Positions 1,920 through 23,083 of a stretch of DNA of 25,397 bases are shown here, piece by piece (position 1 is the first letter of the stretch; every line of letters starts with the position of its first letter). Origin of the DNA: a virus; the IMG/VR virus record IMGVR_UViG_3300006108_000053, positions 1 through 25,397 of that record; one strand, 5' to 3'. The notes beneath the pieces were generated by a model. It saw only the letters and a program-made list of their open reading frames with translations, had not been told where the DNA came from and did not search any database. A program made the translations under genes and the position numbers.

Positions 1920-4487
1920 TTAAGCCTGGGCTTCAGTCCAGCTTACGATCATCGACACGTTGGCCGACGAACCAGACTGGTTTTGAGCGGTGATGGTAAT
2001 CAAGTCAGGGCCGTCAGGGTAAACGCCATTAGCCGTGGTAGGAACCGTATTGGTCAAACCGCCGCCAAGGATTGTGTTACCTAGATCTCGGATGAGAGTG
2101 AGATCTTCTTCCGTCAATGTGGAGTTGGCAGTGCCGCCCGCGTTGTTGGTGTAGAAAGAGAAGATAGTTTCACCGCCCGTCAGCGTCGTAGCGCCCGTAT
2201 GCGCGCAATACTGCGACAGAGACGAGCCACCGACGTTGGTAAACGTGCCAGCCGAGTTTTGGCCGTTCAGCACCACGTTGATTTTGAACACGCCGGTAGA
2301 CAACACGCGAATGGACTGAAGTTTCAACTGCATACGGTTGATGACTTCACGCGCCCCAAGAACGCCGATCAAACCAGTGTCAACTGAAGGCCCCACGCGA
2401 AGGCTGAAGATCGAGTTGGTAGCGCCAGAGGCAACCGCAACCGCCGTCGCACCAGTGCTTTGATTGAAACTGAACAACAAATCATTATTGAAGCCACCGT
2501 CCATGACGATAGACGTGCCCCAATGCGACATGCTGCCACCAGCCGGGAAAATAGACGCATTAGTAGTTTGGTTGGCAAGCTCTACGGCGACAGGAGCCGT
2601 AGCCGAATATGTATATGCCGTAGCAGCACTGCCGCCCGTAGCGCCGCGCGTGCAGCCCGTAAACGTGGTGCCGGTCAACCCGGTATAAGTCACATACTCC
2701 ACGACGCCCGCATTGCCAGACCCAACCAAACGGAAAGCCCCGCTATTCGGAAAACCGGCAGTGCTTGCCACGTTGATCGTGGTGTCGCCGGTGCCAACGC
2801 TAGACGTAATCGTGGTGATCGGTTGAATGCAATATGACTCGTAGTGCGCCGGCAAGTTGCCAGATCGCATCCACGCTTCAGTGTAGGTGTTGTTGTTCTG
2901 AACTTTGTGGCAGTAAATCATCTGCCCCAGATTGGTGCGCAAACCAAAGCGGATAAACCCCGCACCATACCAAGAGTAGTCAATATACCACATTTGCATC
3001 TTGGTCAGGTCAATGGTGTAGCCCGAGGGGCCAGTGCCATCACACTTGTCCAGGTTCCAAGACGATTGCGGAAAGCGCGTTTCAATGGTCAACGACGAAA
3101 CCACGTTCGATGAAGTGGCAGCACGATATTCCGGCACAATCTGAATCTGAGTGTTGCTGGAAATCGAATGTACACGGTAGCTTTGACCGCGAATGACAAT
3201 ATAGCTGCCAGGAACTAACTGCTGCGAGAACAGAGTATTCGTGCCGGTGACAACATTGGAACCGCTAGTAACCGCGATTGTGCCTGCAATCTGTTGAGTG
3301 CTTTGCCGACGAACCGCGTTTAGGGTTTGGCCGTCAAACTCAAAAAAGATCCCGTTCTGCTGGTCCATAATGCCAATGCGGTGCGCAGTGCCATACCAGC
3401 TATAAGAACTGACATAGATCGGGAACCCCGTAGCAGGAGAAACCGCCGGAGCGTTGTTGCAAGTATAGGTCAAGGAAGTCGGAGTAACCGTCACAACCTG
3501 CCAAATGCCGTTGTATTGCGACTGAACGCATCCGCTAACCTGGATATAAGATCCCGGCGTCATATTGTGGACGAACTTGGTGTTCACCGTGATCGTCGTG
3601 CCTGAAGCGGTCAGGCTATCAACGAACATGGCGTTCTTCATAATAGACCCAGTAGACATCTGAATCGCCTTGCCGGACTGATACCGGAAATAACGACGTG
3701 TCTGACGGATGATCTGAGCGCCAGGAGAGCCAACACCGGCAGAGAACTGAATGCCACCGTCGTAAGCGCGGTGAATCGAGAACCCGTTTGGAGTGCAATA
3801 CAGAGTGCTTGTCGAACCGGCAGACGCCGTAATCGTGCCAGTGGGAGCGTTTGCAACGGTGAACGTGAACGTGTTGTTCGTCGGAACCGTGGCAACCTGA
3901 AACATGCCATTCGGCGGGTTCGTCGTGGACGTAGTGCCGACAACATAGATCAGGTTGCCTACAGACAAGCCGTGGCCGTAGTTGGTCGCAGCAGTAACAG
4001 TTGTGCCTGCGTTCGTGAACGCAAAACCCGCACTCGAAGACACCGGAATAGCAGCACCAGTGTAGAACGTGCCCGTATAGATGTAGGTTTTGGTGCTGTC
4101 GTAAATGCTGCCAGAAGTTGCATCTACCGTCCCAGGAAGCTGGGTGTAGGTGAAGCTGCTTACGCTGGTCGTGGTTACAATGAACCAACCATTCGCCAGC
4201 ACGTCAGTCGTGCCTTGCACATAGAGCGGAGTTCCAACCGCCGGGTTGGCAGTCGAAGTCACGGTAACAGTGCCGCTAGAGATCGACACGCCAGTGATCG
4301 TCAGCGGGCTGGTCGGGTTGTAAAACGCAGTGGGACGATTATTCGTCATATTGACGAAATCCCACTTAGTCGGCTGCAAACCATACTCGAAGTCCGTGTC
4401 GATCAACGACTGCGGCGTAGACGTGCGAATCTTGGCAACGGCGTCTAGCTGTTCTTCTTTAGGGATGATCTGGAGAACGTCGGGCAT
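1920..4487 (-). CDS. Large virion appendage/tail-associated structural protein with repeated beta modules
   Basis: 855 residues. The start (QSLIDTDFEYGLQPTKWD at 26-43) and the core resemble a structural protein family of environmental tailed phages. Core landmarks are QTRRYFRYQSGKAIQMSTG at 262-280, GIMDQQNGIFFEFDG at 372-386, and WYIDYSWYGAGFIRFGLR through NLPAHYE at 500-550. Three copies of a beta-rich unit (about 64-118, 157-212, 290-345) share the pattern T-V-T...G..I.V.GTT...NG.F.V.TV....FTYT. Two other Thr/Val-rich modules occupy about 400-470 and 555-635. The third unit interrupts the conserved core. The ATG follows GAGGTAG by 6 bases. Such composition fits a surface-exposed host-contact or baseplate-ring protein, but the exact role is unknown. 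Confidence 0.75.
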   Translation of the reverse strand: MPDVLQIIPKEEQLDAVAKIRTSTPQSLIDTDFEYGLQPTKWDFVNMTNNRPTAFYNPTSPLTITGVSISSGTVTVTSTANPAVGTPLYVQGTTDVLANGWFIVTTTSVSSFTYTQLPGTVDATSGSIYDSTKTYIYTGTFYTGAAIPVSSSAGFAFTNAGTTVTAATNYGHGLSVGNLIYVVGTTSTTNPPNGMFQVATVPTNNTFTFTVANAPTGTITASAGSTSTLYCTPNGFSIHRAYDGGIQFSAGVGSPGAQIIRQTRRYFRYQSGKAIQMSTGSIMKNAMFVDSLTASGTTITVNTKFVHNMTPGSYIQVSGCVQSQYNGIWQVVTVTPTSLTYTCNNAPAVSPATGFPIYVSSYSWYGTAHRIGIMDQQNGIFFEFDGQTLNAVRRQSTQQIAGTIAVTSGSNVVTGTNTLFSQQLVPGSYIVIRGQSYRVHSISSNTQIQIVPEYRAATSSNVVSSLTIETRFPQSSWNLDKCDGTGPSGYTIDLTKMQMWYIDYSWYGAGFIRFGLRTNLGQMIYCHKVQNNNTYTEAWMRSGNLPAHYESYCIQPITTITSSVGTGDTTINVASTAGFPNSGAFRLVGSGNAGVVEYVTYTGLTGTTFTGCTRGATGGSAATAYTYSATAPVAVELANQTTNASIFPAGGSMSHWGTSIVMDGGFNNDLLFSFNQSTGATAVAVASGATNSIFSLRVGPSVDTGLIGVLGAREVINRMQLKLQSIRVLSTGVFKINVVLNGQNSAGTFTNVGGSSLSQYCAHTGATTLTGGETIFSFYTNNAGGTANSTLTEEDLTLIRDLGNTILGGGLTNTVPTTANGVYPDGPDLITITAQNQSGSSANVSMIVSWTEAQA

Positions 4488-4717: not shown

Positions 4718-4913
4718 TTTTCTTTTCCTTGAACAAAGATGGAACGAATACAACGGTGCCAAAGAACGCCGCCATGATAATCCGTTCTTGCGTCGGGTCG
4801 TGCATCACCCAGCAAGCCAAAGCGAACGTCATGCAGAGAGACAGGATAGTAAGAACCCGGTCGCTGATGACTTGAAAGGCGATGCGAACAATCTGCAAAA
4901 TAACGGCGTCCAT
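4683..4913 (-). CDS. Small two-TM membrane protein (holin-like candidate)
   Basis: 76 residues with two hydrophobic segments, about 22-38 (ILSLCMTFALACWVM) and 46-60 (MAAFFGTVVFVPSLF), separated by a short charged turn (HDPTQER) and followed by a charged, Gln-rich tail (KEKKSERQQQQPPEG). Two TM segments with a polar C-terminus is the layout of class II holins, but no family signature is visible. The ATG is preceded by AGGGGAC at 4918-4925. A 3-TM holin already lies beside the lysis enzyme, so this could be an antiholin, a second holin, or an unrelated membrane protein. Confidence 0.65.
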   Translation of the reverse strand: MDAVILQIVRIAFQVISDRVLTILSLCMTFALACWVMHDPTQERIIMAAFFGTVVFVPSLFKEKKSERQQQQPPEG

Positions 4914-4953
4914 AGGTGTCCCCTAAGTTAACTGTGGAAACACCATACATCGT

Positions 4954-5157
4954 TTATTCTTCCTCGTCACCGCCAAAGAAACCAGAACCAAAGTCGTCGT
5001 CACTCACCTTTTGTTTGATCTTTTCCAGATTCAAAGCACGGTCAAGCACACGCATCTTGTCGATCAAAGTGGCTTCGCCGTTGCTCATCACTTCCTTGAG
5101 CAACTTGCTAATGGCCGCTTCAAGATCCGGGTTTATCCCTTTGGTCTTTTTGACCAT
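4954..5157 (-). CDS. Small helical protein with acidic tail
   Basis: 67 residues from ATG 5155-5157, 2 bases after the ejection-protein stop. An upstream TTG in the same frame is less likely. The body is helical and charged (NPDLEAAISKLLKEVMSNGE, IDKMRVLDRALNLEKIKQK), and the end is DDDFGSGFFGGDEEE, an acidic and Gly/Phe-rich tail. Similar small proteins recur next to structural genes in short-tailed phages, but I know of no assigned function. The compact helices and acidic tail would suit a small assembly chaperone or a terminase-accessory protein; this is speculation. Confidence 0.7.
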   Translation of the reverse strand: MVKKTKGINPDLEAAISKLLKEVMSNGEATLIDKMRVLDRALNLEKIKQKVSDDDFGSGFFGGDEEE

Positions 5158-5159
5158 AA

Positions 5160-7475
5160 TCAATCATCTTCCCTTTGTGGCACCAAACGTCCGCCCACGC
5201 CTGCAACAGCCGCAGGCAGCGTGTTTTGCGGAGGGCCTATATCTGGCCGCATACGACGTTGAATTGTCCTGGCGCCACGGCCTAAGGGCGTTGAGAGCGG
5301 ACTAGTGAGGAACCGCGCCAACCGTTCGCCGCGATCTAGCACAGAGCGGAGCACGTCGGTTTCCCCTTGCGAACCCTGAGTTATCGACCTCATGCCCAAG
5401 GCAGAGCCATAACGCGCTTGAGGTGCCAATGGATGCCGGTTTAGGGCGGGTTCAGCCTTCATGGTGTTCGCCAAAGCCTCGGGGCTTACGTGCCCGGCCT
5501 TGTTGATGTTTCCTGCATTGGACTCAACCATATCCTTCAGCGTCATATAAGCCCGATACTGTTGGTTGGTTTTCTTCAAAACCGCAGCAATATGGGGGTT
5601 GGTCCTTTCAATGGCGGCGTCAATTTCATCGACGATCTGCCGCGCTTGGAACCGAATGTTCCCGTCCGTATGGTTGGCCGCTTGATATGCCATCTCACTG
5701 CGTAGGCGGCGCAAATCTTCGCCTTCGATTTTTGCAATTACCGGAGTGCGTGGCGCGGCAGCAGTTGTTCCCGGAGCAGTTGTCTCAATCGGGATTGCTC
5801 CAGGATCTTGATAGATCTTATTCACAACACTTTCGTTAATCAACTTGCCTTCCCAATTTGCCTCCAGAAATTCCTTCACTTCAGAAGTGAGTGGAGTATG
5901 ACCAACGACACGGGCGTAAATGGCTTTCCAGGCATCGCTAACGCTTTTGAAGAACTTTTCAATCGCAGTTACAGGTTTTTGAGTCGTGGTCAACCAACGA
6001 GACGTTTGCTCGGCAAACCATTCATTAAATCCGTGATAATACCGGACGTCTTTTGCCGTGCTAGGGATCATCTGTTGATGTTTAGGCGTGTATTTGTCGG
6101 AAGTCACTGGTCTGAGTTGTTCAACATTCTTGCCCATATCTGCTTTTTTGGCGGCAGCCCATGCATCTCGAATAGCCTTTTTTGTTTCGGGCGTTGCATA
6201 CTCAAAAAGTTGAAATTCGGCCTGATGGCCAAACTCATGCAAAGCAGTGGCTAGAGCGTCTTGAGGATTTGAAATCAAAGCTTCGTTGATGAAAATGTGT
6301 CCAGTCGGGCTTGCCCACCCATAAGCATCTCCGCCAGATCCAACGTAAATGCCAGGATTGACCCTCATCCCCAATTTTTCAGACAATTCGTCCAGTGCTT
6401 TCTTTACGTCGGCTCCCCACAGTGGAGCATCTGGAGACGTAATAGGACGCACATTTTTATAGTTGCTAGCATTCATCTCATTCAAAAGGGCTTGAGTCAA
6501 AGGAGCGGCTTCAATCCGCTCGCCTGGGGCAAACGTCTTTTCAACAAAATTACCGGCGCCTTTTTTGGCGTTGATAATCTGTTGACGCATTGCGTTGAAG
6601 GCTTCAATTTCCGCAGCTTTAATTTCGGCTGCTTTGTATTTATTGACTAGATTGCGGGCAACGCCCATCACTTCAGGAGAACCAGCCGGATAAATTCTCG
6701 CCTCTTGTTTCGCGATCTCTTCGAGAAGATCAGCCATATCTTTGTCGATGTCGAATATGCCGCTGTAGATCTTCCGGTATTTCTTGTCAAAATCCTTGGC
6801 GCGGCCTTCCAAAAACTCACGGCTTACGCTATCCGCCTCTTCGCCTGTTTGCGCAGTGACTTCCCGGTTGATCTTGATCTGCTCGGCGGGAGAAAGCGCC
6901 TCGCTTTTGGGCGCGTTTTGACGTACTTGCCTCGCACTCACGGTGTAACCGGCATCTTCGGCAGCCTGGGCAACTTTTGCGGCTTCAGCGGACGGGCGTC
7001 CGATCAAAGCCGACTCGCCCAATGCGCGCAGACCTTTTCCAACCACTTTCGGACCTAGATTGGGAGACAAAAACGGTCCGATAAACGCACCGATTTTCTC
7101 GGCAGCCGTTTCTGGTTCTCCAAAGGCAAAATCTCGAATGTTTTCGGTTGTCGGAAGCTGAAGAACGCCAGTGCTAGGCAAACCAACGGCGCCTTGCGCC
7201 CAACCAGCCAAATTTTGAACATCTCCAAAGATGCCAGGAATGCTCGCCAAAGCACTCTTGCCGCCACTGACCGCAACGTCTTTCAAATTTGCCATCTGCT
7301 CGGCGTAAGGCATAGACGATACCGGGGTCGTGTCTTCGTAATAGCCGGTGAAATTCCCCATCGGGTCATAGCTGGGAATTTGCCTCGCAGGAGCGGTCGA
7401 AACTGGTTTTTCTTGACCGGCGGCGGGCACAAATCTCCCGCCACCTGTGCTGGGAGGGTCAGGAATAAAGCCCAT
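5160..7475 (-). CDS. Ejection/internal virion-type protein with zincin metallopeptidase module
   Basis: 771 residues. The N-terminal third is Gly/Pro-rich then helical (EDAGYTVSARQVRQ at 173-186; long helices to about 305). The C-terminal part (578-745) continues the helical scaffold with LRRLRSEM, QARQIVDEIDAAIER and KKTNQQYRAYMTLKDMVES, a pattern seen in internal or DNA-ejection proteins of phages. Between them, about 320-560 carries a metallopeptidase-like module: HEFGH at 413-417 (6225-6239) gives the two His ligands and catalytic Glu414, and NEWFAE at 484-489 offers Glu485 or Glu489 as third ligand. The ATG shares one base with the previous stop (TAATG). The protein likely enters the virion and may cut host or phage proteins, or help cross the envelope; this role is inferred. 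Confidence 0.75.
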   Translation of the reverse strand: MGFIPDPPSTGGGRFVPAAGQEKPVSTAPARQIPSYDPMGNFTGYYEDTTPVSSMPYAEQMANLKDVAVSGGKSALASIPGIFGDVQNLAGWAQGAVGLPSTGVLQLPTTENIRDFAFGEPETAAEKIGAFIGPFLSPNLGPKVVGKGLRALGESALIGRPSAEAAKVAQAAEDAGYTVSARQVRQNAPKSEALSPAEQIKINREVTAQTGEEADSVSREFLEGRAKDFDKKYRKIYSGIFDIDKDMADLLEEIAKQEARIYPAGSPEVMGVARNLVNKYKAAEIKAAEIEAFNAMRQQIINAKKGAGNFVEKTFAPGERIEAAPLTQALLNEMNASNYKNVRPITSPDAPLWGADVKKALDELSEKLGMRVNPGIYVGSGGDAYGWASPTGHIFINEALISNPQDALATALHEFGHQAEFQLFEYATPETKKAIRDAWAAAKKADMGKNVEQLRPVTSDKYTPKHQQMIPSTAKDVRYYHGFNEWFAEQTSRWLTTTQKPVTAIEKFFKSVSDAWKAIYARVVGHTPLTSEVKEFLEANWEGKLINESVVNKIYQDPGAIPIETTAPGTTAAAPRTPVIAKIEGEDLRRLRSEMAYQAANHTDGNIRFQARQIVDEIDAAIERTNPHIAAVLKKTNQQYRAYMTLKDMVESNAGNINKAGHVSPEALANTMKAEPALNRHPLAPQARYGSALGMRSITQGSQGETDVLRSVLDRGERLARFLTSPLSTPLGRGARTIQRRMRPDIGPPQNTLPAAVAGVGGRLVPQREDD

Positions 7476-9181
7476 TATTCGTCACTCCAAGTGCCCTGAA
7501 CGCCGTTGATGATAATCCTCTGGCGATTCTTTATCTTGTTATCCTGCCTTGCCTTTTGCGCCGCAGCTTGATCCGGGAAACTCAACATCTTTTTTTGCAT
7601 ATATTGCGCAAACGTGTTACTTTTGTCGTTTAGTTTCGCTTGCTGCGCATCAAGCACATCAGTCACCGTAAACGGGATTGACTCTTGAATTTTCTTCAAA
7701 GCGTTTTCGTATATCGGTTTCATCTCAGGCGTAGCTTCAACGAGTTTGACTTCAATTGCCTTCTCAAACCTCTGGCGCAGTCCAGCCAATTTTTCCAAAA
7801 CGGTAAAAGGCTTGTCGCCGGACTTAATCAGCAATCCTTCGGTGAACCCGGCAACCATCCCTCCAGAAACGGAGCGCCCGCCTTGCATGATTTTAGCAAG
7901 TTCAAACCCCAAAGAGTTCATATTATTGTTGTATTGCTGCACTGACTCGCTGGTCAATGAGTTGGTTAAAGCGTTCAACGGAGCGCCGAGAATTGATCCT
8001 TCAGTTTTTCCAAAAATTCCACTAGTCGTGAATTGCTGTTTAGACAAGTTTTCGACTTGCTGCGCAGCTTCGTTCATTGAGATTGCAACTTGAGAGTTGA
8101 ATTGCTGAGCCATTGCGCTTGGCTGCTTATTTGCGCTTCCGGTTGGACGCCCTTGAAGCTGCACGACCACATCTGTCGGCAATAAATTGCCGTTCAGATC
8201 CGTGAGGGACACGCTTCCGTCTGAGGCTGTTTTCAGAACATAATCAAAGGGTTTGCCGTCTAGCGTTTCATGAATGACCCTTGTCGTCACTCTTCCGACG
8301 CTTGCCGGTTGCACTTCAATGCCCTGCGCCATCATTTGACGGGCTTGCCCGACTGTTGTTTTCATCACTTGGCCATTGACGAAAACATCAACAAACTTGC
8401 GATCTTCGGCGGCTTGCGCATCTTGTTGAGCGTGCTGATGGCGAGCGTCTTCAAGCGCCGCTTGCTTGACAAGGCGAGCCGATTCCATGCTCATCTGGTG
8501 CGCCCATTCCGCCGTCTTTTGAACGCCTTCGTATTGCACCTTGGCTTGCAGCACGGGCGCCCCAAGGCGAGCCATGGCCAATTGAGCGTAGGCCTTGCCC
8601 TTGTCCATGTCTGTTTGAGACAGTTTTAGGGCCTGCTGAAGTTCCTGCTGAATTTCGGCATTGTGCGACTTGATCGACTCAAGATTGGCCTGAAACTGCT
8701 TGTATTCCTTCTCATACAGATCCTGCCGCCCTTGCTGGTAGCCCTGCATCATGCCGGTCATCGCCGCCATGCCTTCCATCCCGGCAGTCTTGGCCTTGCC
8801 GCCGAGAGCAGTGCCAAGCACGCCCAACATGCCAAAGATCATGGAAAGATCGGAGGCGGTTTCTTTCGTGGGCACAAACGCCGGAATGGGCTTGGTTTCG
8901 GCCTTGGCCTGAGCAACCGCCGCACGATCAGCAATGGACCTCTGTTCCGCCGCTTGCGCCATAGCCTCTGCGCCAGCCACTTCCTGAGCACCCTGCTTTC
9001 TTGCGTAGTCTTCGCCAGCAGCCATAACCCCGCTCATGCTCGCGGGATACTGCAAGCCACTAGCAGGCTCTTGCGTGGGAGCGGGAGGCGGCGCAGGAGC
9101 CGGAGCGAGGGCGGGAGGGGGAGGCGTCATGTTTGCGCCGGGAACCACCGGAAAAGAACCGCTAAAAATGCTGTCTTCCAT
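7475..9181 (-). CDS. Putative ejection/internal virion protein
   Basis: 568 residues. A Pro/Ala-rich N-terminus (PPPPALAPAPAPPPAPTQEP) precedes a short Gly/Ala/Met hydrophobic region at about 113-145 (MIFGMLGVLGTALGGKAKTAGMEGMAAMTGMM). A long Gln/Glu/Lys/Ala-rich helical, coiled-coil-prone segment (about 146-260) follows. The C-terminal half is mixed, including FVNGQVMKTTVGQARQMM and ILGAPLNALTNSLTSESV. Composition and position among three other similar large proteins suggest an internal core or DNA-ejection protein. The ATG has AAGGT 6 bases upstream. I recognise no enzymatic motif. Confidence 0.65.
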   Translation of the reverse strand: MEDSIFSGSFPVVPGANMTPPPPALAPAPAPPPAPTQEPASGLQYPASMSGVMAAGEDYARKQGAQEVAGAEAMAQAAEQRSIADRAAVAQAKAETKPIPAFVPTKETASDLSMIFGMLGVLGTALGGKAKTAGMEGMAAMTGMMQGYQQGRQDLYEKEYKQFQANLESIKSHNAEIQQELQQALKLSQTDMDKGKAYAQLAMARLGAPVLQAKVQYEGVQKTAEWAHQMSMESARLVKQAALEDARHQHAQQDAQAAEDRKFVDVFVNGQVMKTTVGQARQMMAQGIEVQPASVGRVTTRVIHETLDGKPFDYVLKTASDGSVSLTDLNGNLLPTDVVVQLQGRPTGSANKQPSAMAQQFNSQVAISMNEAAQQVENLSKQQFTTSGIFGKTEGSILGAPLNALTNSLTSESVQQYNNNMNSLGFELAKIMQGGRSVSGGMVAGFTEGLLIKSGDKPFTVLEKLAGLRQRFEKAIEVKLVEATPEMKPIYENALKKIQESIPFTVTDVLDAQQAKLNDKSNTFAQYMQKKMLSFPDQAAAQKARQDNKIKNRQRIIINGVQGTWSDE

Positions 9182-9190
9182 GATGATACC

Positions 9191-10243
9191 TTACTTCGTC
9201 GGGGTCATGGTGTATGACGTTGTGGGCACCAGCATACGCATCATGGTGGCATAATAGTTTTGCGTCATGTTCTGCAATTGCTGATTGGCTTGCAACCCGG
9301 CCTGGATGCCCTGAGTGGCGTAAGCATCGCCCGTCTGGACCGTGCTCATGCCCAACGACATCTGGTTGTTCAACAGCGTGTTGTAAATGTTTCCAAGCTG
9401 AGTTGCAGCCTGTTGTGCGCCCACACCACCCTGATTGGAAACTTGTTGGTTGATCTGCGCCTGGGCGGCCTGATACGCCTGTTGCGATTGCGGGGTGAGT
9501 TCACCGCGTTGTGCAGCGCTTATCATCGACTGCCCTTGTTGCTGGAAAGGTGCGGCCAAAGCAGCATACTGCGCTTGCGTCTGGTTTGCCTGTCTGCGAG
9601 CGGCTGCTTGCTGGCTCAATCCCAACCCAAGACCGCCTGCACCAAGCCCCAACTTAAGCAAATTGGAAGGATCTTGCAGTGCATTCAAAGCCGAGGTTTG
9701 CGTTCTGCTCAACCAGCTGGGCGGCGGACCTTTTTCAACAGTCTGATTCTGTTGTTGATCGGGCGACACCGCTGCGGTCTGATCTGCACCGGCAAACGTC
9801 GGGGCAAACGCCCCTGTTGTCGGCGCAGTCGTCGGAATATTTACTTGCGGATTTACGGCACCATAAGCTGTGCCATAATCGGTTGTAGACGGCTGCATCT
9901 GGCCGGTCTGACCAAAACCCGAAAATTCTTGGGGCGGGGAAACAGATTCCGGGGCCGCTACTGGCGTGGTTTCTGTAGCCGTTGGCGGAGGAGTAACTGG
10001 TTCAAGCTGTGCAGGAGGCGTATAAAATTCATCCACGCCTTCCATCGCAAATTCAAGCAACCCAGTCTCGGGGTTGATCTTCCCAGAACCACCGTGTGCT
10101 TTCAACAACGCAGCTTCTCTGGGCGAAATGTGAGCAAGGATAGTATCACCCTTGCGGCCGCGCGAACGAAGGATCTGAGCAAGACCTTTCAGGTCCAAAT
10201 CAGACATTGCATCGGTCTTTAACGCCTTCGCGAGACTTGCCAT
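9191..10243 (-). CDS. Putative internal/ejection protein, Gln/Ala-rich
   Basis: 350 residues. Residues about 27-67 contain RSRGRKGDTILAHISPREA, then LLKAHGGSGKINPETGLLEF, a segment I associate with a widespread phage and prophage structural protein family. A Pro/Thr-rich linker follows (about 75-175), then a hydrophobic Gly/Leu stretch (KLGLGAGGLGLGLSQQAAARR) and a Gln/Ala-rich helical C-terminus with repeated QQA, QAQ and QANQ units. It lies 2 bases after the Ala/Gly-rich protein gene and 9 bases before the next. A DNA-ejection or internal virion role is inferred from domain pattern and neighbours. Confidence 0.65.
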   Translation of the reverse strand: MASLAKALKTDAMSDLDLKGLAQILRSRGRKGDTILAHISPREAALLKAHGGSGKINPETGLLEFAMEGVDEFYTPPAQLEPVTPPPTATETTPVAAPESVSPPQEFSGFGQTGQMQPSTTDYGTAYGAVNPQVNIPTTAPTTGAFAPTFAGADQTAAVSPDQQQNQTVEKGPPPSWLSRTQTSALNALQDPSNLLKLGLGAGGLGLGLSQQAAARRQANQTQAQYAALAAPFQQQGQSMISAAQRGELTPQSQQAYQAAQAQINQQVSNQGGVGAQQAATQLGNIYNTLLNNQMSLGMSTVQTGDAYATQGIQAGLQANQQLQNMTQNYYATMMRMLVPTTSYTMTPTK

Positions 10244-10245
10244 GA

Positions 10246-11103
10246 CTAAGTTCCAGACCCATCAGTTTGCCGCAAAGAAGCAGCGTTCCACACATTGCGA
10301 TTAGACGAACCAGTATCAGACGAACCAAAGTAAGTTCCGCCCGGTTGATACGACAAATCAGGCGATAAACTCAAACCCTGAGCAAGAGCAGCAGTTGAAG
10401 GAGAAGGAATGCTCCCCGCTCCCGTAGAAGAAACGCCACCACCACTTGGGAATGCAGCACCTAGAGCCAAATTACTTGCCAAACCACCAGCAATTTGACC
10501 GCCAATAGATGACGTAGGCTCGTTTGAACCGGCTGAATACAAGCTAGAGCCAATTCCGCTGGCCGCACCGCCCAAAGCACCGAGTTCAGCCGCAGTGCCA
10601 ATGTTCTGACCAGTAGCAGCAGCACCAGCAGCACCAGATACGCCGCCTACAATGCCCTTACTCAAGCCGCTGCTAAGCGCATCTGAAGTCGTGTATCCCA
10701 GTGAAGTCCCCAAAGTGGGAGATACGGTAGATCCGACAAGGTTTTGAACGGTTGGGCTAATAGCACTGCCCACACCACCGCTAATTGCGCCACCAAGCGC
10801 ACCTTGCCCGATATCACCGCCCTGAACAGCAGCAGATGCAGCACCAGTTGCGGAGCCTACAATGGCTCCTGAAGCGGCGTTAGCAACGGTCGTGATGGCA
10901 GACAACGAGCCAGCCGCATCAGCGGCAGCAGCAGCCGTAGGCGCGCTTATAGCGGCAGCAGCGGCAGCCTCACCGCCAAGCGCACTCGCAATAGCCGGAG
11001 CAATCAAAGGAGCGGCAACCAATCCGATGCCAGCCGACACAACCGCCAACACAATAGGAGCGATCGTCTTGTTGTGTTTGATTAAACTACTGAGCCAAGA
11101 CAT
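10246..11103 (-). CDS. Ala/Gly-rich hydrophobic virion protein (glycine-zipper-like)
   Basis: 285 residues, dominated by Ala, Gly, Ser and Thr. Residues 13-45 are hydrophobic (APIVLAVVSAGIGLVAAPLI), a probable membrane-inserting helix. Many GxxxG-like repeats follow (GAIVGSATGAASAAVQGG, GALGGAISGGVGSAISP), typical of glycine-zipper proteins that oligomerise in membranes. The last 70 residues are polar and Ser/Gly-rich. In an ejection-protein cluster this suggests an envelope-spanning channel component; that is inference. Start and stop of the neighbouring 168-residue gene share one base (TAATG). Confidence 0.6.
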   Translation of the reverse strand: MSWLSSLIKHNKTIAPIVLAVVSAGIGLVAAPLIAPAIASALGGEAAAAAAISAPTAAAAADAAGSLSAITTVANAASGAIVGSATGAASAAVQGGDIGQGALGGAISGGVGSAISPTVQNLVGSTVSPTLGTSLGYTTSDALSSGLSKGIVGGVSGAAGAAATGQNIGTAAELGALGGAASGIGSSLYSAGSNEPTSSIGGQIAGGLASNLALGAAFPSGGGVSSTGAGSIPSPSTAALAQGLSLSPDLSYQPGGTYFGSSDTGSSNRNVWNAASLRQTDGSGT

Positions 11104-11609
11104 TAGAGAGCAACCTCCAAAACATAGCCGCCCGGTTGAGTCGATTGGCGTATGTTCACGGGGTATTTCTTGGACAACTGCTTAACCGCCATAGCTGCCT
11201 GCGGATCTTCAGTTGTTGAAGTAACTCGGTTAATGCCCATGCTCTTGAACGTGTTCAAAGCAGTCACAAACCGCTGCGCAATCTGGTTGGCATCTTCCGT
11301 AGATATGACATGCACATCAACCGTGCCTTTAGGCAGAATTTTTTGATCTGGCGTGTAGCCCACCGCAAGAAGCAATGTGTTGCCAATTTGCACCAGTCTT
11401 GCTTTTCCAGACTTAGCCAACTGGTTAAGGTTGAGGATAAACTGATTAACGGTCTTTTCGTCAGCACCCGTTGTTTGCATATACTGCTTGATAATGCTGG
11501 CAGGGCCAGTTTCTGACGGCAGCGTTTTGCCGCGCTGGCGTGCAATAGCCCCCATTACGCTTTTGTTAGGGGCGTCTATCTTAGACTGTGCTTCCGCTAC
11601 TCGTGCCAT
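11103..11609 (-). CDS. Unrecognised 168-residue accessory virion protein
   Basis: 168 residues. The N-terminal half is charged and helical (KIDAPNKSVMGAIARQRGK; TVNQFILNLNQLAKSGK). The C-terminal half alternates strands and helices (KGTVDVHVISTEDANQIAQR, FVTALNTFKSMGINRV, YVLEVAL). The second half loosely resembles an acetyltransferase-type alpha/beta fold found in some short-tailed phage gene clusters, but no acetyl-CoA-binding loop is evident, so I do not assign it. It is coupled to genes on both sides through single-base TAATG overlaps. Its place between tailspike-linked small genes and ejection proteins suggests a tail or ejection accessory role. Confidence 0.6.
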   Translation of the reverse strand: MARVAEAQSKIDAPNKSVMGAIARQRGKTLPSETGPASIIKQYMQTTGADEKTVNQFILNLNQLAKSGKARLVQIGNTLLLAVGYTPDQKILPKGTVDVHVISTEDANQIAQRFVTALNTFKSMGINRVTSTTEDPQAAMAVKQLSKKYPVNIRQSTQPGGYVLEVAL

Positions 11610-11950
11610 TAAGAAAGCCCTAACACCGCCGCTATTTGTTGGTGAATCAGCAAATGCTCAGAGAGCCAATCGTAAAAAGAACCCTCGTTGTTGAAGTTCA
11701 CATCCAACATATTAAACGGATTGCTGAGACCAGTCAGCCCCGCGAACGATTGATGTTCTACCTGATGAGCCTGTAGCCAGTCATCAAGATTATCAGTATC
11801 CGCATCCATGAGCGGATATACAGGCACGGAAATGCCCTGAAGGAAAAACGTATCCCTGAACAGGTTGTGCTGAAGCCCGTTTTCGAACAGAAAGCTCTTT
11901 AAGCTATCCGTATTGCCAAACTCCACCGCGCTGAGTTGATCGAAATCCAT
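11609..11950 (-). CDS. Small protein with three internal repeats
   Basis: 113 residues built from three copies of one unit of about 37 residues. The best-aligned parts are TDSLKSFLFENGLQHNLF (14-31), TDNLDDWLQAHQVEHQSF (52-69) and EGSFYDWLSEHLLIHQQI (89-106). All share Leu/Phe, then Phe/Trp-Leu, an Asn/His, and His-Gln/Asn at fixed spacing, and each ends near GIS, GLS or GLS. Linkers contain LMDAD and MLDVN. The repeated His pairs could bind metal or build a trimeric or pseudo-threefold virion piece; neither is shown. I have seen no named family for it. It is coupled downstream by TAATG. Confidence 0.65.
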   Translation of the reverse strand: MDFDQLSAVEFGNTDSLKSFLFENGLQHNLFRDTFFLQGISVPVYPLMDADTDNLDDWLQAHQVEHQSFAGLTGLSNPFNMLDVNFNNEGSFYDWLSEHLLIHQQIAAVLGLS

Positions 11951-11956
11951 TTGTTC

Positions 11957-12187
11957 TCATTTGTCCGCTTTGCGGTCTAGCTTGTCGAATATCTGCTTTA
12001 GAATATCCTTCACCTCAAGAATATCCTGACGATACTCGTTTTTGGTCACATACTTGGTATGGAGATCCTTCTCCAAGTCCTTCAAGTCTTTTTCCAGACT
12101 GCGAATTGCGTCCCATACAACCTTTAACAACCAGCCGAGGATTGCACCAAAACCAGCCGCCAAAATGTTGATGAGATTTTGGTCCAT
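11957..12187 (-). CDS. Membrane-anchored coiled-coil small protein
   Basis: 76 residues. One TM helix at about 5-27 (LINILAAGFGAILGWLLKVVW) is followed by a charged coiled coil (IRSLEKDLKDLEKDLHTKYV; ILEVKDILKQIFDKLDRKADK) with leucine at heptad-like positions and a KNEYRQD joint. This layout, N-terminal TM plus cytoplasmic or periplasmic coiled coil, is common in phages beside tail-fibre or lysis genes. It superficially resembles hemolysin-XhlA-type or spanin subunits but lacks their signatures. The ATG follows the preceding stop directly. A membrane-associated tail or lysis accessory is the best guess. Confidence 0.65.
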   Translation of the reverse strand: MDQNLINILAAGFGAILGWLLKVVWDAIRSLEKDLKDLEKDLHTKYVTKNEYRQDILEVKDILKQIFDKLDRKADK

Positions 12188-12325
12188 TTAGACCGCCTGT
12201 GTTGTACGACGCTTGATCGGCAATAATGTTGTCATAAAATTTAACGCCATGCCACCAGACACACCCAGCACTCCCGAGGTGTTTACGGCGTCGGCCAGGA
12301 TCGAGAGGTTGCGGGGGGTTGTCAT
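12188..12325 (-). CDS. Tiny 45-residue protein after the tailspike
   Basis: An ATG at 12323-12325 opens a 45-codon frame ending with TAA at 12188-12190, immediately before the next ATG at 12187. The product begins MTTPRNLSILADAVNTSGVL, continues GVSGGMALNF, and ends basic (IKRRTTQAV). AAAGG lies 8 bases upstream of the start and the frame exactly fills the gap between neighbours, which supports it. The N-terminus resembles the short PRNLS...LAD leader seen at the start of some phage tail-fibre proteins, so it may be a shortened relative or a chaperone-like accessory. Function unknown. Confidence 0.6.
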   Translation of the reverse strand: MTTPRNLSILADAVNTSGVLGVSGGMALNFMTTLLPIKRRTTQAV

Positions 12326-12335
12326 TTATCGGCCT

Positions 12336-14057
12336 TTATTGCTTATTCAAAGCCATTGTTGGGGCAGTGACGTACGTGATTGTGACAGATTGCCTAGGAG
12401 CAAGGGTGAACGAGCAAGGCGACGCATTACTGACAGCAACGCCGTTCACTGTAGAGACCACCCCCGATCCGCCGTAAATGTTGACGTTCTCAATCGAAAG
12501 ACCCGCCGTGTAAGTATAAGGGGAGGCCCCAACCGTCTGCAATGCAGTTCCTTGCGGGTTAAACCCAGCAGCTTGCGAAACACTTGACCCATACCCTGCG
12601 GAACCTGTCTGCAAAATTACTGGAGAATTGGCCGAAGTCAGCTTAGTTCCGTTCACGGTTAAAACACCAGCAAAACCACTTTGTAATTCTATCGCGTAGC
12701 TTTGCAGGTTTGTATATCCCGGAGGCGTTCCTCCGATTTCCCCCATCGAGAATTTAACGCTGTCTGTGTATTGCCCGATTAACACGCCAGAGTATGTTCC
12801 GCTTGAAGAAGTAGAATTGCCGTAGATGTCGGGATTGATGAAGTCGATGTCCTCGCAATGGTAAATCTGTATGCCGTTAGTCAGGTTGTTAAGCACCTGC
12901 ACATCGGTGAAATCCATGCGGGCAATCAAAGAGCTTGGATTAGTATCAGCGTTTAAACGGATGCCGACATAGGCGGTCGCGGCCCAAGTGTTAATGAACT
13001 TCCAGCCTTGAACAATTCCTCCGTTGGTAACGGAAAAATTCATGCCGATGCCCTGAGACGCGGCGATATTAAAGTCGGAAGTGTCAAAGGTTACATTTGA
13101 GAGGTAGCCCCAAATGCTGAACTGGCCGGCGCCGGGATTAACCAACAGACCCTGGTGGCAATGCAGAATATCAGAGTTTGTTAATACGAACGCGCCCCCC
13201 ATGTAGGGAATTTCAAAGCCAGCATTCGGGGTATAGGCACTGCTGTCCTGATCCATGATGACATTGTTAAAGAATAGATCATGTGAGCCGCCAGTGATGA
13301 GCACACCGTCGTGATTGAAGTTTCGCACCTGCAAAGTGTCAAACCACAAAGCACCAGAGACATTAGTAATCTGGATATTGTCATATCCCTGCGTAAACCA
13401 GCATTTTCTCGCCCCGCAGTTATTGGACCCGGTAAACGTAATGTATGCGCCCGATGTTTGCTGTGAGGCGGACGTGAAAAAGAGGTTTTCAAAGAACACG
13501 CCCGCTACGGACGACACAGTAAACATCGTGCTGGAGGTAAGAGCCGCTTTTAATTTCACTCCGCCCGCAGTGTTGGCTGTTTGATTTTCGCCTACAAAAG
13601 AGACGTTGTTGTAGGCGCTTAACGTCAAACCTCCGACGATATAAGGATTGATGTTGGCTGGAACCCACACCTGCCCGCCTCCAGCCGCGCCCGCCGCGTT
13701 GTATGCAGCCAAAAAAGCAGATGAGGAATCTGTGGTGCCATCTGTGTACGCCCCGTAGTCCAAGACGTTGAACGGACGCTGCGCCCTCGCCCCCAACGTC
13801 CGAGCAGTCGTTGACCCCGTGGCCGTGATCGGTGTGAGCGATGCGTCCGAGACGCCGGTGCCGCCGTTGGCTGCGGTCAGGGGGGTGGAAAGGGTCAGCG
13901 CACCCGTTATGACGGGCGTTGAAAGCGTGACTGAACCATTCCCGATGCCGTTCACGGCATTGAAAATAGTCGTAAAATCCGTATCCAAGTAGGTCAACTG
14001 GTTCTGAGTAGTCGTGTTGCCAAAGGTATATGGAACAGTCAGCGGGAGTGTAGTCAT
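12336..14057 (-). CDS. Tailspike with pectate-lyase-like beta-helix
   Basis: 573 residues. The N-terminal 90 residues look like a particle-binding region (LTVPYTFGNTTTQNQLTYLD; TAANGGTGVSDASLTP). RPFNVLDYGAYTDGTTDSSS at 94-113 is the typical entry of pectate-lyase-3-type right-handed beta-helix tailspikes, followed by GGGQVWVPA and many short strands with Asn/Gly turns (YNNVSFVGENQ, DIDFINPDIYGN). The C-terminus is beta-rich (LAPRQSVTITYVTAP). Such spikes bind and often cleave surface polysaccharide; the catalytic residues cannot be located from sequence alone. The ATG shares a base with the nozzle stop (TAATG). This is the likely main host-range determinant. Confidence 0.8.
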   Translation of the reverse strand: MTTLPLTVPYTFGNTTTQNQLTYLDTDFTTIFNAVNGIGNGSVTLSTPVITGALTLSTPLTAANGGTGVSDASLTPITATGSTTARTLGARAQRPFNVLDYGAYTDGTTDSSSAFLAAYNAAGAAGGGQVWVPANINPYIVGGLTLSAYNNVSFVGENQTANTAGGVKLKAALTSSTMFTVSSVAGVFFENLFFTSASQQTSGAYITFTGSNNCGARKCWFTQGYDNIQITNVSGALWFDTLQVRNFNHDGVLITGGSHDLFFNNVIMDQDSSAYTPNAGFEIPYMGGAFVLTNSDILHCHQGLLVNPGAGQFSIWGYLSNVTFDTSDFNIAASQGIGMNFSVTNGGIVQGWKFINTWAATAYVGIRLNADTNPSSLIARMDFTDVQVLNNLTNGIQIYHCEDIDFINPDIYGNSTSSSGTYSGVLIGQYTDSVKFSMGEIGGTPPGYTNLQSYAIELQSGFAGVLTVNGTKLTSANSPVILQTGSAGYGSSVSQAAGFNPQGTALQTVGASPYTYTAGLSIENVNIYGGSGVVSTVNGVAVSNASPCSFTLAPRQSVTITYVTAPTMALNKQ

Positions 14058-16024
14058 TAGAACCTCGCCCTTAGCTCATGCTCTGTCTCAAGCGTGTTTA
14101 TCACAAACCCGCCGTAAGTAGAGGTTATGGTTAACCCGATATATTTGCCCCACTGTTGGGCATCGCTTTTGTAAAGGTAATAACCGTTGGTAAAGTCCCA
14201 TGGAATAATGGATGAGACGTTGTTGACCCACGGTATAAAGGCGCCAGATGAATTAAACCAAGGCACTTGGTTTGTTAGCGTGTAGATCGGGCTTGAGTTG
14301 ACTTGACTGTCAACAGTGACGTTGAACACGCCGCTATTGGTCAAAGTGGCTTCAATGCCAAATTTCAAAGCCTGTTTGTCTCGTATAATATCTCCCATAG
14401 TCCACAGCGCGCTTTGCACGTTGGACGATATACTGGCTGTGCTGCTTTGGTATAGCTTAACCAGTGATGTACCGTCAGTGCCGTAGATCGAAGGCACCCC
14501 ACCAACCGGAACGCCGTTAATATATTTGATGGTGCCTTGGCTAGTCAGGAACCATTTTTTGTCAAAAAACACTGCTTGAAGCGGGCGCGTTCCTTGCGCA
14601 GGATCTTGGTAGTAAAAATTAAACGCAGCGCAAAGAATGCCGTTCAGCAGCACCTGACCGCCACTTACAGGCTGCGAAAAATCAATGAGCGGAAATATGC
14701 CATCCAAAGCGTCAGACAACTTCGTTGTCGTAGAACCCACCAACGCATAAACGCCGTAGTCATTCATAAACAAAACGCTGCGGAAGTATGGGAACAAACT
14801 GTAGACGCGTTTAGTGCCAACAGACGCACTGACGTTGGTGTTGGTGAAGATCGTTGTGCCGTTGCTCTGAACGCGAACGTCAGAAAACACATTGATGCTG
14901 TCGTCACCAAAAATGTAGAGGAAGTTGTTGGCCGAAAGTAGGCCCTGAATGTTGCCGTGCAGCGTTTCGTCGGTCAGCGTCACAGCGCCCGCAGAAACGG
15001 TCACAAAGTCGCTGTATGAGCCTGCGGCGGAGTAATACACCGTGCGCCCTTGAGCCACCCACACGCGCCCCGAGAACGTCGCCACGTCTATGTTTGGGCT
15101 AGTGCTGGCAACCGCCGTAGCAATGGCTCCTGAACCCGTAGAATCGGTAATAGAGACAGACGGGTTGGACGTGTAACCGTTGCCCAAGTTAGTCATCACA
15201 ATCTGCGTGATAACATTGGCGACAACAACCGCTTTGGCAGCCGCATTTGCGCCACCACCACCGGAAATAGTGACCGTGGGAGTGGCGCTATAACCTGTGC
15301 CACCGCTTTGAAGGTTTACAACAACAGTGCCGGTCGCAAAGCTAATGTAACTAGCAACCGCAGTTGCGCTTGATCCACCACCACCGCTCAAAGTCACTGT
15401 TACCGGCCCTGTGTAGCCAGAACCGGCGTTAGTCAAAGTGATGGAAGATACCGCAGTGCCGGTAAGCGATACCTGGGCCGTAGCTTGAACGCCGTTTGCG
15501 TCATTCGGCGCGCTAATAGATACAGACGGTGCGCTAGTATAGCCGGTTCCAGGGTTGGTAATTGCGATCGTGCCAACGGAGCCAATGGCGACTACGTTAT
15601 TACCATTCCAACTATACAACCCGTTTGCCGGGTCAAGAATCAACAAACGCTCATTTTTCCATTGAGCCGAGCGCAATCCCGATCCACTAAACTTACCCGC
15701 AGATGCAATAGTGCCTTTAGTCGCCGTTTGGATATTAAAATCCTCAGCTGCGCCGTTGCTCTGGAATGAAAGCAAATAGTCAGACAAATTGATATTAGAC
15801 GACGTAAAATAAGTTGTCGCCGTGGTCCAGGTAACTACATTGCCGCCGCTGTTTGTGACTGAGATCTGAGCCGGGACAATCTTAAGATTGCCTGAACCAA
15901 TAGGCATCGCATTTTCAAGCCACGAAAATTCGTTCTCAGGAATTGCCGTGCGATTGGCGTGAGTATTGATACCCCTAAAGTCTTTGATGACCAGATACTG
16001 TTTGCGCTGCTCTGCCGACGCCAT
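14057..16024 (-). CDS. Tail nozzle/stabilisation-like protein with four GxGY repeats
   Basis: 655 residues. The N-terminus IKDFRGINTHANRTAIPENE and FSWLENAMPIGSGNL matches the P22 gp10/tail-tubular-B-like stabilisation proteins that form the beta-propeller end of short tails. Later strands such as RVWVAQGRTVYYSAAGSYSDF and NNFLYIFGDDSINVFSD fit propeller blades. An insertion at about 150-305 holds four tandem units with GTGYTSAP, GSGYTGP, GTGYSATP and GNGYTSNP. The gene starts 3 bases after the adaptor stop and its own stop overlaps the tailspike ATG. Position between adaptor and tailspike supports the assignment; the exact family is inferred. Confidence 0.75.
   Translation of the reverse strand: MASAEQRKQYLVIKDFRGINTHANRTAIPENEFSWLENAMPIGSGNLKIVPAQISVTNSGGNVVTWTTATTYFTSSNINLSDYLLSFQSNGAAEDFNIQTATKGTIASAGKFSGSGLRSAQWKNERLLILDPANGLYSWNGNNVVAIGSVGTIAITNPGTGYTSAPSVSISAPNDANGVQATAQVSLTGTAVSSITLTNAGSGYTGPVTVTLSGGGGSSATAVASYISFATGTVVVNLQSGGTGYSATPTVTISGGGGANAAAKAVVVANVITQIVMTNLGNGYTSNPSVSITDSTGSGAIATAVASTSPNIDVATFSGRVWVAQGRTVYYSAAGSYSDFVTVSAGAVTLTDETLHGNIQGLLSANNFLYIFGDDSINVFSDVRVQSNGTTIFTNTNVSASVGTKRVYSLFPYFRSVLFMNDYGVYALVGSTTTKLSDALDGIFPLIDFSQPVSGGQVLLNGILCAAFNFYYQDPAQGTRPLQAVFFDKKWFLTSQGTIKYINGVPVGGVPSIYGTDGTSLVKLYQSSTASISSNVQSALWTMGDIIRDKQALKFGIEATLTNSGVFNVTVDSQVNSSPIYTLTNQVPWFNSSGAFIPWVNNVSSIIPWDFTNGYYLYKSDAQQWGKYIGLTITSTYGGFVINTLETEHELRARF
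15104..15577 (-). repeat. Four tandem GxGY protein repeats in nozzle gene
   Basis: Within the nozzle protein the GxGY motifs fall at residues 159-162, 201-204, 242-245 and 281-284, spacings of 42, 41 and 39. Each unit reads I..T..G.GYT..P.V.I followed by a Gly/Ala/Ser stretch (SGGGGSSATAVA, SGGGGANAAAKAV). Units of this type occur as add-on beta domains in structural proteins of aquatic phages. They are probably surface-exposed. Confidence 0.75.
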
Positions 16025-16027
16025 AGG

Positions 16028-16666
16028 TTAATACCCTGAGCTATACGGATTAGGCAGCCTGCGCGTAAATGTGCCAGCAAGCACGTTCTGCACTTTTTTG
16101 ATGTATTCGTTCTTGAAGATCTCGGACTCGCCGTAAGACTGCTCTTTGTATTTGGCAGTATGGCAAGCGTAGTAAGCCACTGGAGAAGTCCAAGGATCGG
16201 GAATAGGGTCTACGTCCGACAAGTTTACGAGCGGCACTGGCTCAATAACCGTGTCGATTTCCATTGCATAAACTTGGTCAGGCACAGGACCAAGGTAAAA
16301 GGTCTGAGTGCCATACATGGTGAACGCGATTGGGCGTCCAATGTAGTTCTGCCAATAGCGAAGCTGCGCGTTGAAATCACTCCACGCCAGATAGCGCAAA
16401 GGAACGCGGCTGTTGCCCCAATACAGGTTGATGTTCACAATATCCATCGTCTGCGCACCCTGCGGCATTGATGAAAACGTGTAGATCTCTTGGCTGGTGA
16501 CGGTATTCAACATCTGAATGGTGCGAAGGCAGCCGGTATCGCGCACCAAGCGATTTCTCGCTTCGTTGATGTAGTCAGTCAGTTCATTGGTCGAATAAAA
16601 GTTGGCGTTAGCGTCGTGCAGAAGCCTCTGGCACTGCGTAATGTAGTTTTGAAGCGTCGTGGACAT
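16028..16666 (-). CDS. Head-tail adaptor (DUF6682-like)
   Basis: 212 residues. The N-terminus LQNYITQCQRLLHDANANFY, then STNELTDYINEARNRLVRDT, is the characteristic start of the DUF6682-type adaptor family in short-tailed phages, and helices with conserved aromatic residues follow (LYWGNSRVPLRYLAWSDFNA; VAYYACHTAKYKEQSYGESE). The protein is expected to form a ring under the portal that receives the nozzle. GAGGAGG lies 4 bases before the ATG. Its order, capsid then small proteins then adaptor then nozzle, is as expected. Confidence 0.75.
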   Translation of the reverse strand: MSTTLQNYITQCQRLLHDANANFYSTNELTDYINEARNRLVRDTGCLRTIQMLNTVTSQEIYTFSSMPQGAQTMDIVNINLYWGNSRVPLRYLAWSDFNAQLRYWQNYIGRPIAFTMYGTQTFYLGPVPDQVYAMEIDTVIEPVPLVNLSDVDPIPDPWTSPVAYYACHTAKYKEQSYGESEIFKNEYIKKVQNVLAGTFTRRLPNPYSSGY

Positions 16667-17857: not shown

Positions 17858-18874
17858 TTAGATCGAAAGGCTGTTGTAGCCGGTGACTTTGGTCATAGAA
17901 CGCGGCTTGGTGTTAACCAATTCCGCAATCATCAGAACCGCACCGACATAACCAATTTGCCAATTCGGCAAAGTGGACTCAAAACCCGTAAACACAAACG
18001 AACCCTGCTCATGGATATAGAGCGACAAATAGTTCGTGTTCAGGAAGTAAACCGTGCCTTCAGGGCAATACGGGTCCGGGTAAACCGGAACGCCGGCAAC
18101 CATCAGAGCGCGGAACGCAGCCTGCGGGCCATTGGCATCAGTGTCAAAGCCGTGACCCGGCGTAATGACATACTGCTCCTGACCAACATAGTCCTGCGCC
18201 AGAAGTGTCCAAGTGCCAAAGCCGCAAACCGCAAAGGTCGGAACTTCAGCGCCATTCTTCACGGTGCCGGAAATGTATTGCAAGATGTTCTGACGAGTCG
18301 GGTTCACCGAACCAGCCGCATACACCTTCGAGCGCCACCAAGTGTTCTGAGTGGTCGAGCGAGTGATGTTGCCGTAAGTCGCAGTGCCAGTGCCATCATC
18401 AACCGCCGCTGGCAGCCCAATAAACTGCTGCGTGTTGGTCGTGTTGTTGTAAAGCGCCGTCGCCATCGCATCCATCATCACGTTGGTCGCATCGTTCATG
18501 CGAGCCTCAATGAGCGGAATAACAGCATGATCCTGCTGAACCGCACCTTCCATGCCCAAGAACGGCACGGGAGCGATCATCAACTTTAGGTTAAATTCAG
18601 CGTCGAACGCGCCTTGCTGGACGCTCGGCTGGCTGAACGAACCGCTGTAGTCAGACCATTGCGCGTTGACAAACTGCGAACCCTGCACCGGCACGGTAAC
18701 AGAAGACACACCGCCAGAAGCAACCTGACTGTTCGAAATCAACGCCGCAAGAAGCGGAGTCGAGTTGTAGATTTGAACAACCAGCTTGGGAATAAACGCA
18801 CGCCGCGTGACATAAGTCAGCTCGGTATACTGCGTTGATCCCGTCGCCGGAAGAATGCCACCACCAATAGGCAT
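17858..18874 (-). CDS. Major capsid protein
   Basis: 338 residues. Position directly after a scaffold-type gene and before decoration-like genes identifies it. Sequence features fit an HK97-fold capsid: an N-terminal arm (PIGGGILPATGSTQYTELTY), long helix region IPLIEARMNDATNVMMDAMA, an internal Trp/Ser-rich domain, and C-terminal GYVGAVLMIAELVNTKPRS. The ATG follows GGAG by 7 bases. The protein appears to lack an N-terminal delta domain, as expected when a separate scaffold is encoded. Strong expression is expected because of the clear ribosome site and its own short spacer. Confidence 0.85.
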   Translation of the reverse strand: MPIGGGILPATGSTQYTELTYVTRRAFIPKLVVQIYNSTPLLAALISNSQVASGGVSSVTVPVQGSQFVNAQWSDYSGSFSQPSVQQGAFDAEFNLKLMIAPVPFLGMEGAVQQDHAVIPLIEARMNDATNVMMDAMATALYNNTTNTQQFIGLPAAVDDGTGTATYGNITRSTTQNTWWRSKVYAAGSVNPTRQNILQYISGTVKNGAEVPTFAVCGFGTWTLLAQDYVGQEQYVITPGHGFDTDANGPQAAFRALMVAGVPVYPDPYCPEGTVYFLNTNYLSLYIHEQGSFVFTGFESTLPNWQIGYVGAVLMIAELVNTKPRSMTKVTGYNSLSI

Positions 18875-20429: not shown

Positions 20430-20579
20430 TCATTCACGATCCAAGCGGCGCGTATTAGCGCGCGGCGCGGACGTGCGAATAGAGGATACGCGATATTCAA
20501 TGCCTGCGCCATCTCTACCTGCATTCAACTGGGAAGTTTGAATTCTTGGCTGATCGCCACGAGGAGTTTCATCAGCCAT
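20430..20579 (-). CDS. 49-residue basic protein coupled to the portal gene
   Basis: The ATG at 20577-20579 shares its A with the portal stop (TAATG). The product begins MADETPRGDQPRIQTSQLNA and continues GRDGAGIEYRVSSIRTSAPR, ending RRLDRE; TGA is at 20430-20432. It is polar, Arg-rich and probably disordered. The exact stop-start fusion with the portal gene argues that it is real. It could be a portal-associated or DNA-contacting peptide; no family recognised. Confidence 0.6.
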   Translation of the reverse strand: MADETPRGDQPRIQTSQLNAGRDGAGIEYRVSSIRTSAPRANTRRLDRE

Positions 20580-22681: not shown

Positions 22682-23083
22682 TCAGTCCCCTTTATCGCCT
22701 TCAAGTTGTTGATTGAAACTTGGTTGCGAATAGTCCGCACGGTTGCGAATACCCACATCCATCTTTATTTGCCCGTCAACCACCTGAAGCCCCAGGTGGC
22801 GGTACATGCGCGGTTTAGGCGAACGTCGATACTCGGTGAACCGGGTGTTATACATGCCTTGCATCACGGCAATTTCGCCATTTTCCCACTGTTGCAAGGC
22901 CCTGCTAACCCGAATCTGCGTTATCTCTGAGACCGGGTTGATTTTCTGGATAAAGCATTTCTTGAACAGATCCTCGGTAATGCCCGCCACGTTGGCAAAC
23001 AACGCCGCCGAGATCCCCCGTTTCTTATCCGCGAGAAACCTGTCAATACGCTCCATCAAGACTTTTTTGGGCAGGACGCTCAT
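22682..23083 (-). CDS. HTH-like protein directly after TerL
   Basis: 133 residues. Residues about 20-72 (KRGISAALFANVAGITEDLF, then NPVSEITQIRVSRALQQWEN) look like a lambda-repressor-type helix-turn-helix bundle with a conserved-looking AGI turn. The C-terminal half is basic and polar (RFTEYRRSPKPRMYRHLGLQ). The ATG shares one base with the TerL stop (TGATG). Position within a packaging operon suggests DNA binding in packaging or feedback control; a regulator is equally possible. Confidence 0.65.
   Translation of the reverse strand: MSVLPKKVLMERIDRFLADKKRGISAALFANVAGITEDLFKKCFIQKINPVSEITQIRVSRALQQWENGEIAVMQGMYNTRFTEYRRSPKPRMYRHLGLQVVDGQIKMDVGIRNRADYSQPSFNQQLEGDKGD

Follow-up and report, generated by a model that had tools for sequence, protein, structure and literature searches.

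A predicted gluzincin-type metallopeptidase module in a putative phage ejection protein appears to be an optional, exchangeable enzyme cassette

The window analyzed here, a linear IMG/VR virus record taken at its full length of 25,397 bases, carries a gene (P0001; 5160..7475, minus strand) for a 771-aa putative ejection protein with a zinc-metallopeptidase module predicted near its middle. From comparison with related loci, this module looks like an optional and exchangeable enzyme cassette, and comparable ones have already been described in giant phage proteins that are injected. That injected phage proteins contain proteases was predicted in 2017, with a role either in processing or as effectors directed at the host, and the majority of these proteases are in huge multidomain proteins (PMC5512222). 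The enzyme belongs to a known type, and the variation lies in the compact carrier, the single exchangeable zincin, and the natural relatives in which the slot is empty or swapped. With a small, expressible enzyme and natural controls, one of them with a 90% identical capsid protein, the targets of injected phage proteases become testable.

The source virus is a freshwater phage, probably short-tailed. Its head and tail genes are on the minus strand and are arranged in the order terminase (23083-24843), SU10-like portal (20579-22213), major capsid protein (17858-18874), and tail and fiber genes, followed by P0005, P0004, P0003, and P0001; an SU10-type adaptor is coded at 16028-16666, also on the minus strand. 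The product of P0005 (10246..11103, minus strand) is Gly/Ala-rich and hydrophobic; it is a putative internal or ejection protein, P0004 (9191..10243, minus strand) codes for another putative internal or ejection protein, and P0003 (7475..9181, minus strand) codes for a helical putative ejection protein that neighbors P0001 and is its syntenic partner in relatives. P0001 is the last gene of this putative ejection-protein block, and we infer that its product is an internal virion protein, ejected with the DNA, from the gene order, the helical character of the scaffold, and the domain context that it shares with other phage proteins. Searches with P0001 gave neither a sequence match nor a significant fold match to known ejection proteins, and its full-length model (pLDDT 63) fits no solved one. 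The gene that follows (1920-4487, minus strand) codes for an 855-aa virion or fiber protein, 96% of which aligns at ∼42% identity with virion structural/fiber proteins of T4-like cyanophages (S-RSM4 and S-PM2); no counterpart of it was found in ctah5458, a related genome described below.

The P0001 protein has a disordered N terminus and then a helical scaffold on either side of the zincin module, with all parts coded on the minus strand. Residues 1 to 156 (7008..7475) are modeled with low confidence (pLDDT mostly <50), are probably disordered, and are poorly conserved in the alignment of relatives. The N-terminal and C-terminal scaffold halves, residues 158 to 282 (6630..7004) and 577 to 712 (5340..5747), are both common to proteins lacking the zincin. 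Between them are linker 1 (residues 283 to 343; 6447..6629), consisting of the end of a long helix (267 to 304) followed by variable sequence, the module itself (residues ∼344 to 545; 5841..6446), which is the best conserved block of P0001, and linker 2 (residues 546 to 576; 5748..5840), which is variable and mostly modeled with low confidence. The interval originally singled out from the sequence, 5796-6518, corresponds to residues ∼320 to 560. P0001 has no match above the curated cutoff in Pfam, PHROG, or NCBIfam, and no direct sequence match to these databases or to the PDB is convincing; some relatives have weak, subthreshold matches to M48, SprT, M78, and DUF6782. A profile match to an RNA methylase (E 0.0016) is judged to be spurious, because this is an unrelated enzyme class and there is no HExxH in the alignment.

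Relatives were gathered with a two-sequence module seed (P0001 and Microcystis phage Mae-Yong1326-1), yielding 29 viral loci; with P0001 alone as the query, no viral contig was matched. Both HEFGH (residues 413 to 417; 6225..6239, minus strand) and the motif xEW[FY]AE, which is NEWFAE in P0001 (residues 484 to 489; 6009..6026, minus strand), are kept in every relative of the P0001 architecture that covers the module. Two fragments (L027 and L028) start after HEFGH and both keep NEWFAE, and three giant proteins (L030 to L032) have HEIGH or HEIFH together with NEWFAE. In a 22-row module alignment the invariant columns are H413, E414, H417, E485, W486, A488, and E489; among wider relatives E489 is often replaced by aspartate and E485 is kept, and in one of these (L085) the motif was not seen. 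This conservation in relatives, together with the invariant columns, rules out HEFGH/NEWFAE as a chance motif. Tyr479 (6039..6041, minus strand), a candidate transition-state tyrosine, and F509 both lie outside the filter used for selection, and they are invariant in the 80 module sequences that were chosen by motif. The module is under purifying selection, and its dN/dS is 0.12 in comparison with the nearest relative (L004).

These patterns bear on whether the module still cuts. A structural or binding domain that has lost its protease activity is an improbable alternative; it finds a parallel in the virion RNA polymerase of phage N4, whose HExxH domain is without a described protease activity in the available portion of the source (PMC12633501), but the P0001 module diverges to ∼41% identity with its zinc ligands, catalytic glutamate, and Tyr479 still invariant, which argues against such a loss.

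The AlphaFold2 model of the module (mean pLDDT 85) has zincin topology and contains, in module numbering, a helix at 11 to 25, strands at 32 to 36, 43 to 46, and 50 to 54, and the HEFGH helix at 61 to 82 (residues 404 to 425 of P0001), followed by a helix with E485 (residues 483 to 496). This is the arrangement of a gluzincin, with an N-terminal helix and a small beta sheet before the active-site helix that bears HExxH, and a glutamate on a later helix. Foldseek comparison with the PDB places archaeal minigluzincin chains (jannalysin, selecase, and abylysin) in the top seven positions (E 0.07 to 1.1, probability 0.72 to 1.00) and PprI in the eighth (E 1.3, probability 0.12). None of these matches to solved zincins reaches significance (the lowest E is 0.07, and no match has E ≤ 0.001), and the fold assignment thus rests on the topology, the motifs, and the PDB ranking together. 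Anthrax lethal factor was also matched below threshold, at E 3.9 in the fold search and, as ATLF, at E 0.041 for one of the relatives, which we attribute to the zincin fold in general. In thermolysin the corresponding motif is NExxxD, and by this analogy E485 is likely the third zinc ligand, alongside the two histidines of HEFGH, with E489 likely in the second shell. Judged from the model and the alignments, the module is a gluzincin-type zinc-metallopeptidase domain that looks catalytically intact and is predicted to be active. The sequence-only reading had proposed a zinc peptidase from HEFGH and NEWFAE, and this stands: the motifs are conserved in complete relatives, including HEFGH in close homologues, the third-ligand glutamate is present as E485, and a zincin fold is predicted.

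Homologues without it show that the module is an insertion between the two halves of one scaffold. The complete circular genome ctah5458 (MW202825) has at the same place, beside a P0003 homologue, a gene for a 476-aa protein (P0012) that is without the module and matches P0001 residues 122 to 282 and 583 to 713 in local alignments. A 517-aa version in L034 also lacks the module, and both of its scaffold halves are recognized (E 8e-25 and 4e-27) by profiles that were built without L034. Along with these two clear empty-slot homologues there are two weak ones (L043 and L044), and a further scan for such homologues returned only the L034 contig again. Comparison of homologues with and without the insert had been proposed at the outset as a way to define its boundaries; both kinds are found, and relative to L034 the insert spans residues ∼301 to 582, comprising the module and linkers. 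The earlier impression of a single conserved protein, with its N- and C-terminal parts on either side of the module, is likewise borne out, as the two parts are contiguous in the relatives without the module.

The major capsid protein coded by the window is 90% identical to that of ctah5458 and 87% identical to that of ctz7E20, and the portal and terminase proteins of these two phages are 69 to 71% and 75 to 76% identical, respectively, to those of the window. No module match at E ≤ 1 was found in six frames of either of these complete circular genomes, and the module is therefore dispensable for building the particle. The late-gene position of P0001 would suit a virion maturation protease acting on head or tail proteins during assembly, but because such close capsid sisters lack the module, head maturation is unlikely, and this role as a whole is very improbable. 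We note that the ctah5458 and ctz7E20 neighbors P0004 and P0003 are down to ∼30 to 40% identity with those of the window and that the P0001 scaffold is at <30%. In three other loci (L038, L040, and L041) the slot contains long helical proteins of 755 to 913 aa, whose similarity to P0001 is not detectable.

The module and its flanks have also recombined as separate units among three related loci, L015, L016, and L021. Modules of L015 and L016 are 89 to 99% identical and their N-terminal scaffolds 71 to 79% identical, the relationship is reversed for L015 and L021, and the informative sites are distributed 131:15 inside the module and 36:112 outside (Fisher p = 4e-32). The whole carrier gene is replaceable as well, with a zincin carrier in L036 (9181-11376) and an unrelated 869-aa protein in L037 (9431-12040) occupying the same slot within flanking DNA that is 82 to 93% identical.

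A later acquisition of the module had been read from its low GC content, and we reject this part of the sequence-only reading. The hand counts behind it are reproduced (45, 40, 42, 53, and 43% in or next to the module versus 63, 60, and 60% in the flanking scaffold), and the dip is real: the GC content of the module is 47.0%, compared with 53.1% for the N part and 56.2% for the C part, and a value this low is reached by 7% of coding windows. However, other coding stretches are equally low, such as 7460-8060 in the neighboring gene (43 to 47%). Across relatives the module (mean 43.2%) follows the scaffold (44.2% and 45.4%), and pairwise module and scaffold distances are correlated (r = 0.90; 0/2000 permutations), and we therefore regard the pairing of module and scaffold as old rather than recently acquired.

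The same module is present in ∼40 distinct IMG/VR proteins of 1,100 to 3,567 aa. The module profile recognizes proteins that have LPD1 (L002), LPD38 (L046, L087, and L100), LPD39 (L075), and ParB (L100), in each case at E 7.6e-16 or better; L075 combines LPD39 with a DarB-like PHROG match, L051 has a weak ART-PolyVal match that is below the cutoff (E 0.0029), and no recognized polyvalent domain was found in L031, L032, and L070, which are among the giants sampled in detail. Because several sampled giant homologues carry these domains, the module can be equated with the domain that Iyer et al. (2017) named "MPTase" in polyvalent proteins. We do not class the P0001 carrier itself among the polyvalent proteins, since only the zincin and the scaffold are recognizable in its chain, rather than two or more unrelated effector domains. 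The L002 protein (OP028995.1, Microcystis phage Mae-Yong1326-1; 2441 aa, 4908-12233) is annotated as a "peptidoglycan transglycosylase" and has two HExxH motifs, yet it has no transglycosylase match. We also note that L045, a contig binned into a Bacteroidetes metagenome-assembled genome, encodes a zincin carrier adjoining a P0003-like gene and is thus probably a phage contig.

In a Methylobacterium prophage (L046), the gene for a 2083-aa protein with the module, a second HEIGH stretch, and LPD38 (8828-15079) is located downstream of a transglycosylase gene. This arrangement and the ejection-type position of P0001 would both be consistent with a module that attacks the envelope or cell wall while the DNA passes through, a role like that of the transglycosylase domain in T7 gp16. 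Nonetheless, no peptidoglycan-peptidase family matches the module, and HExxH gluzincins are, to our knowledge, not a usual class of peptidoglycan hydrolase, making this role improbable.

We favor the explanation that the carrier is ejected with the DNA and that its zinc protease cuts one or more host proteins after delivery, and we consider the chances of this being correct to be close to even. The carrier would sit inside the virion and be expelled along with the DNA, H413, H417, and E485 would hold the zinc with E414 as the general base, and cleavage would occur early in infection. This host-directed role is preferred because the module is dispensable, is exchanged between scaffolds, is present in unrelated carriers, and has a strictly conserved active site. 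No significant match was found between the module and sequence or structure families of known substrate. The main rival is self-processing, in which the protease would cut the variable linkers of its carrier, or else the neighboring ejection proteins, either before they are packaged or while they are being ejected, and would thereby free or rearrange the complex that translocates the DNA. Iyer et al. proposed such self-processing for the MPTases of polyvalent proteins, and P1 DdrB is cleaved before packaging, but the N4 virion RNA polymerase is packaged unprocessed (PMC5512222). The flexible, low-confidence linker after the module and the retention of the module with one scaffold over long divergence, as reflected in the distance correlation, are consistent with self-processing. 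However, scaffolds without the module exist in ctah5458 and L034, the module is also in unrelated giant proteins, and no common cleavage site is visible because the linkers are conserved neither in sequence nor in length; we regard self-processing as rather unlikely. If the protease is instead directed at the host, it is conceivable, and we suggest this only tentatively, that the last putative ejection gene provides an open slot in which protease cassettes are exchanged by recombination, with each injected against a different host protein, such as a defense component.

The P0001 block resembles the ejection proteins of T7 (gp14-16) and P22 (gp7/16/20), which are helical and coded after the tail genes by several consecutive internal-type genes; P0001 differs from these in that neither its sequence nor, at a significant level, its predicted fold matches theirs, and its packaging is a prediction. 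Minigluzincins and PprI/IrrE (M78) rank highest in the PDB fold search, although without significance, and they are unlike the module in being stand-alone cellular proteins with 17 to 20% sequence identity to it. The N4 virion RNA polymerase carries a zincin-like domain and is delivered with the DNA (PMC5512222; PMC12633501). Its C1 domain shares with the module an HExxH followed by a NEF/NEW-type helix and an amphipathic helix within a protein ejected into the host, but it is joined to a giant RNA polymerase. The profile similarity of the two is weak (P 3e-4 to 4e-3, probability 8 to 39%) and confined to the HExxH helix and its surroundings, which is suggestive only, and we do not assign the module to the same clade. 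In polyvalent proteins no domain is commoner than the zincin-like MPTase, for which 12 clades have been published. Its proposed role is either processing of the chain or an attack on host proteins, and the polyvalent proteins themselves are proposed to be codelivered with the DNA (Iyer et al. 2017; PMC5512222). Like the module, these MPTases have a three-strand core, an N-terminal helix, the HEXXH helix, and a second helix with a glutamate; unlike them, the P0001-type carrier is of ∼700 to 800 aa and has one recognizable enzymatic domain inserted in one scaffold.
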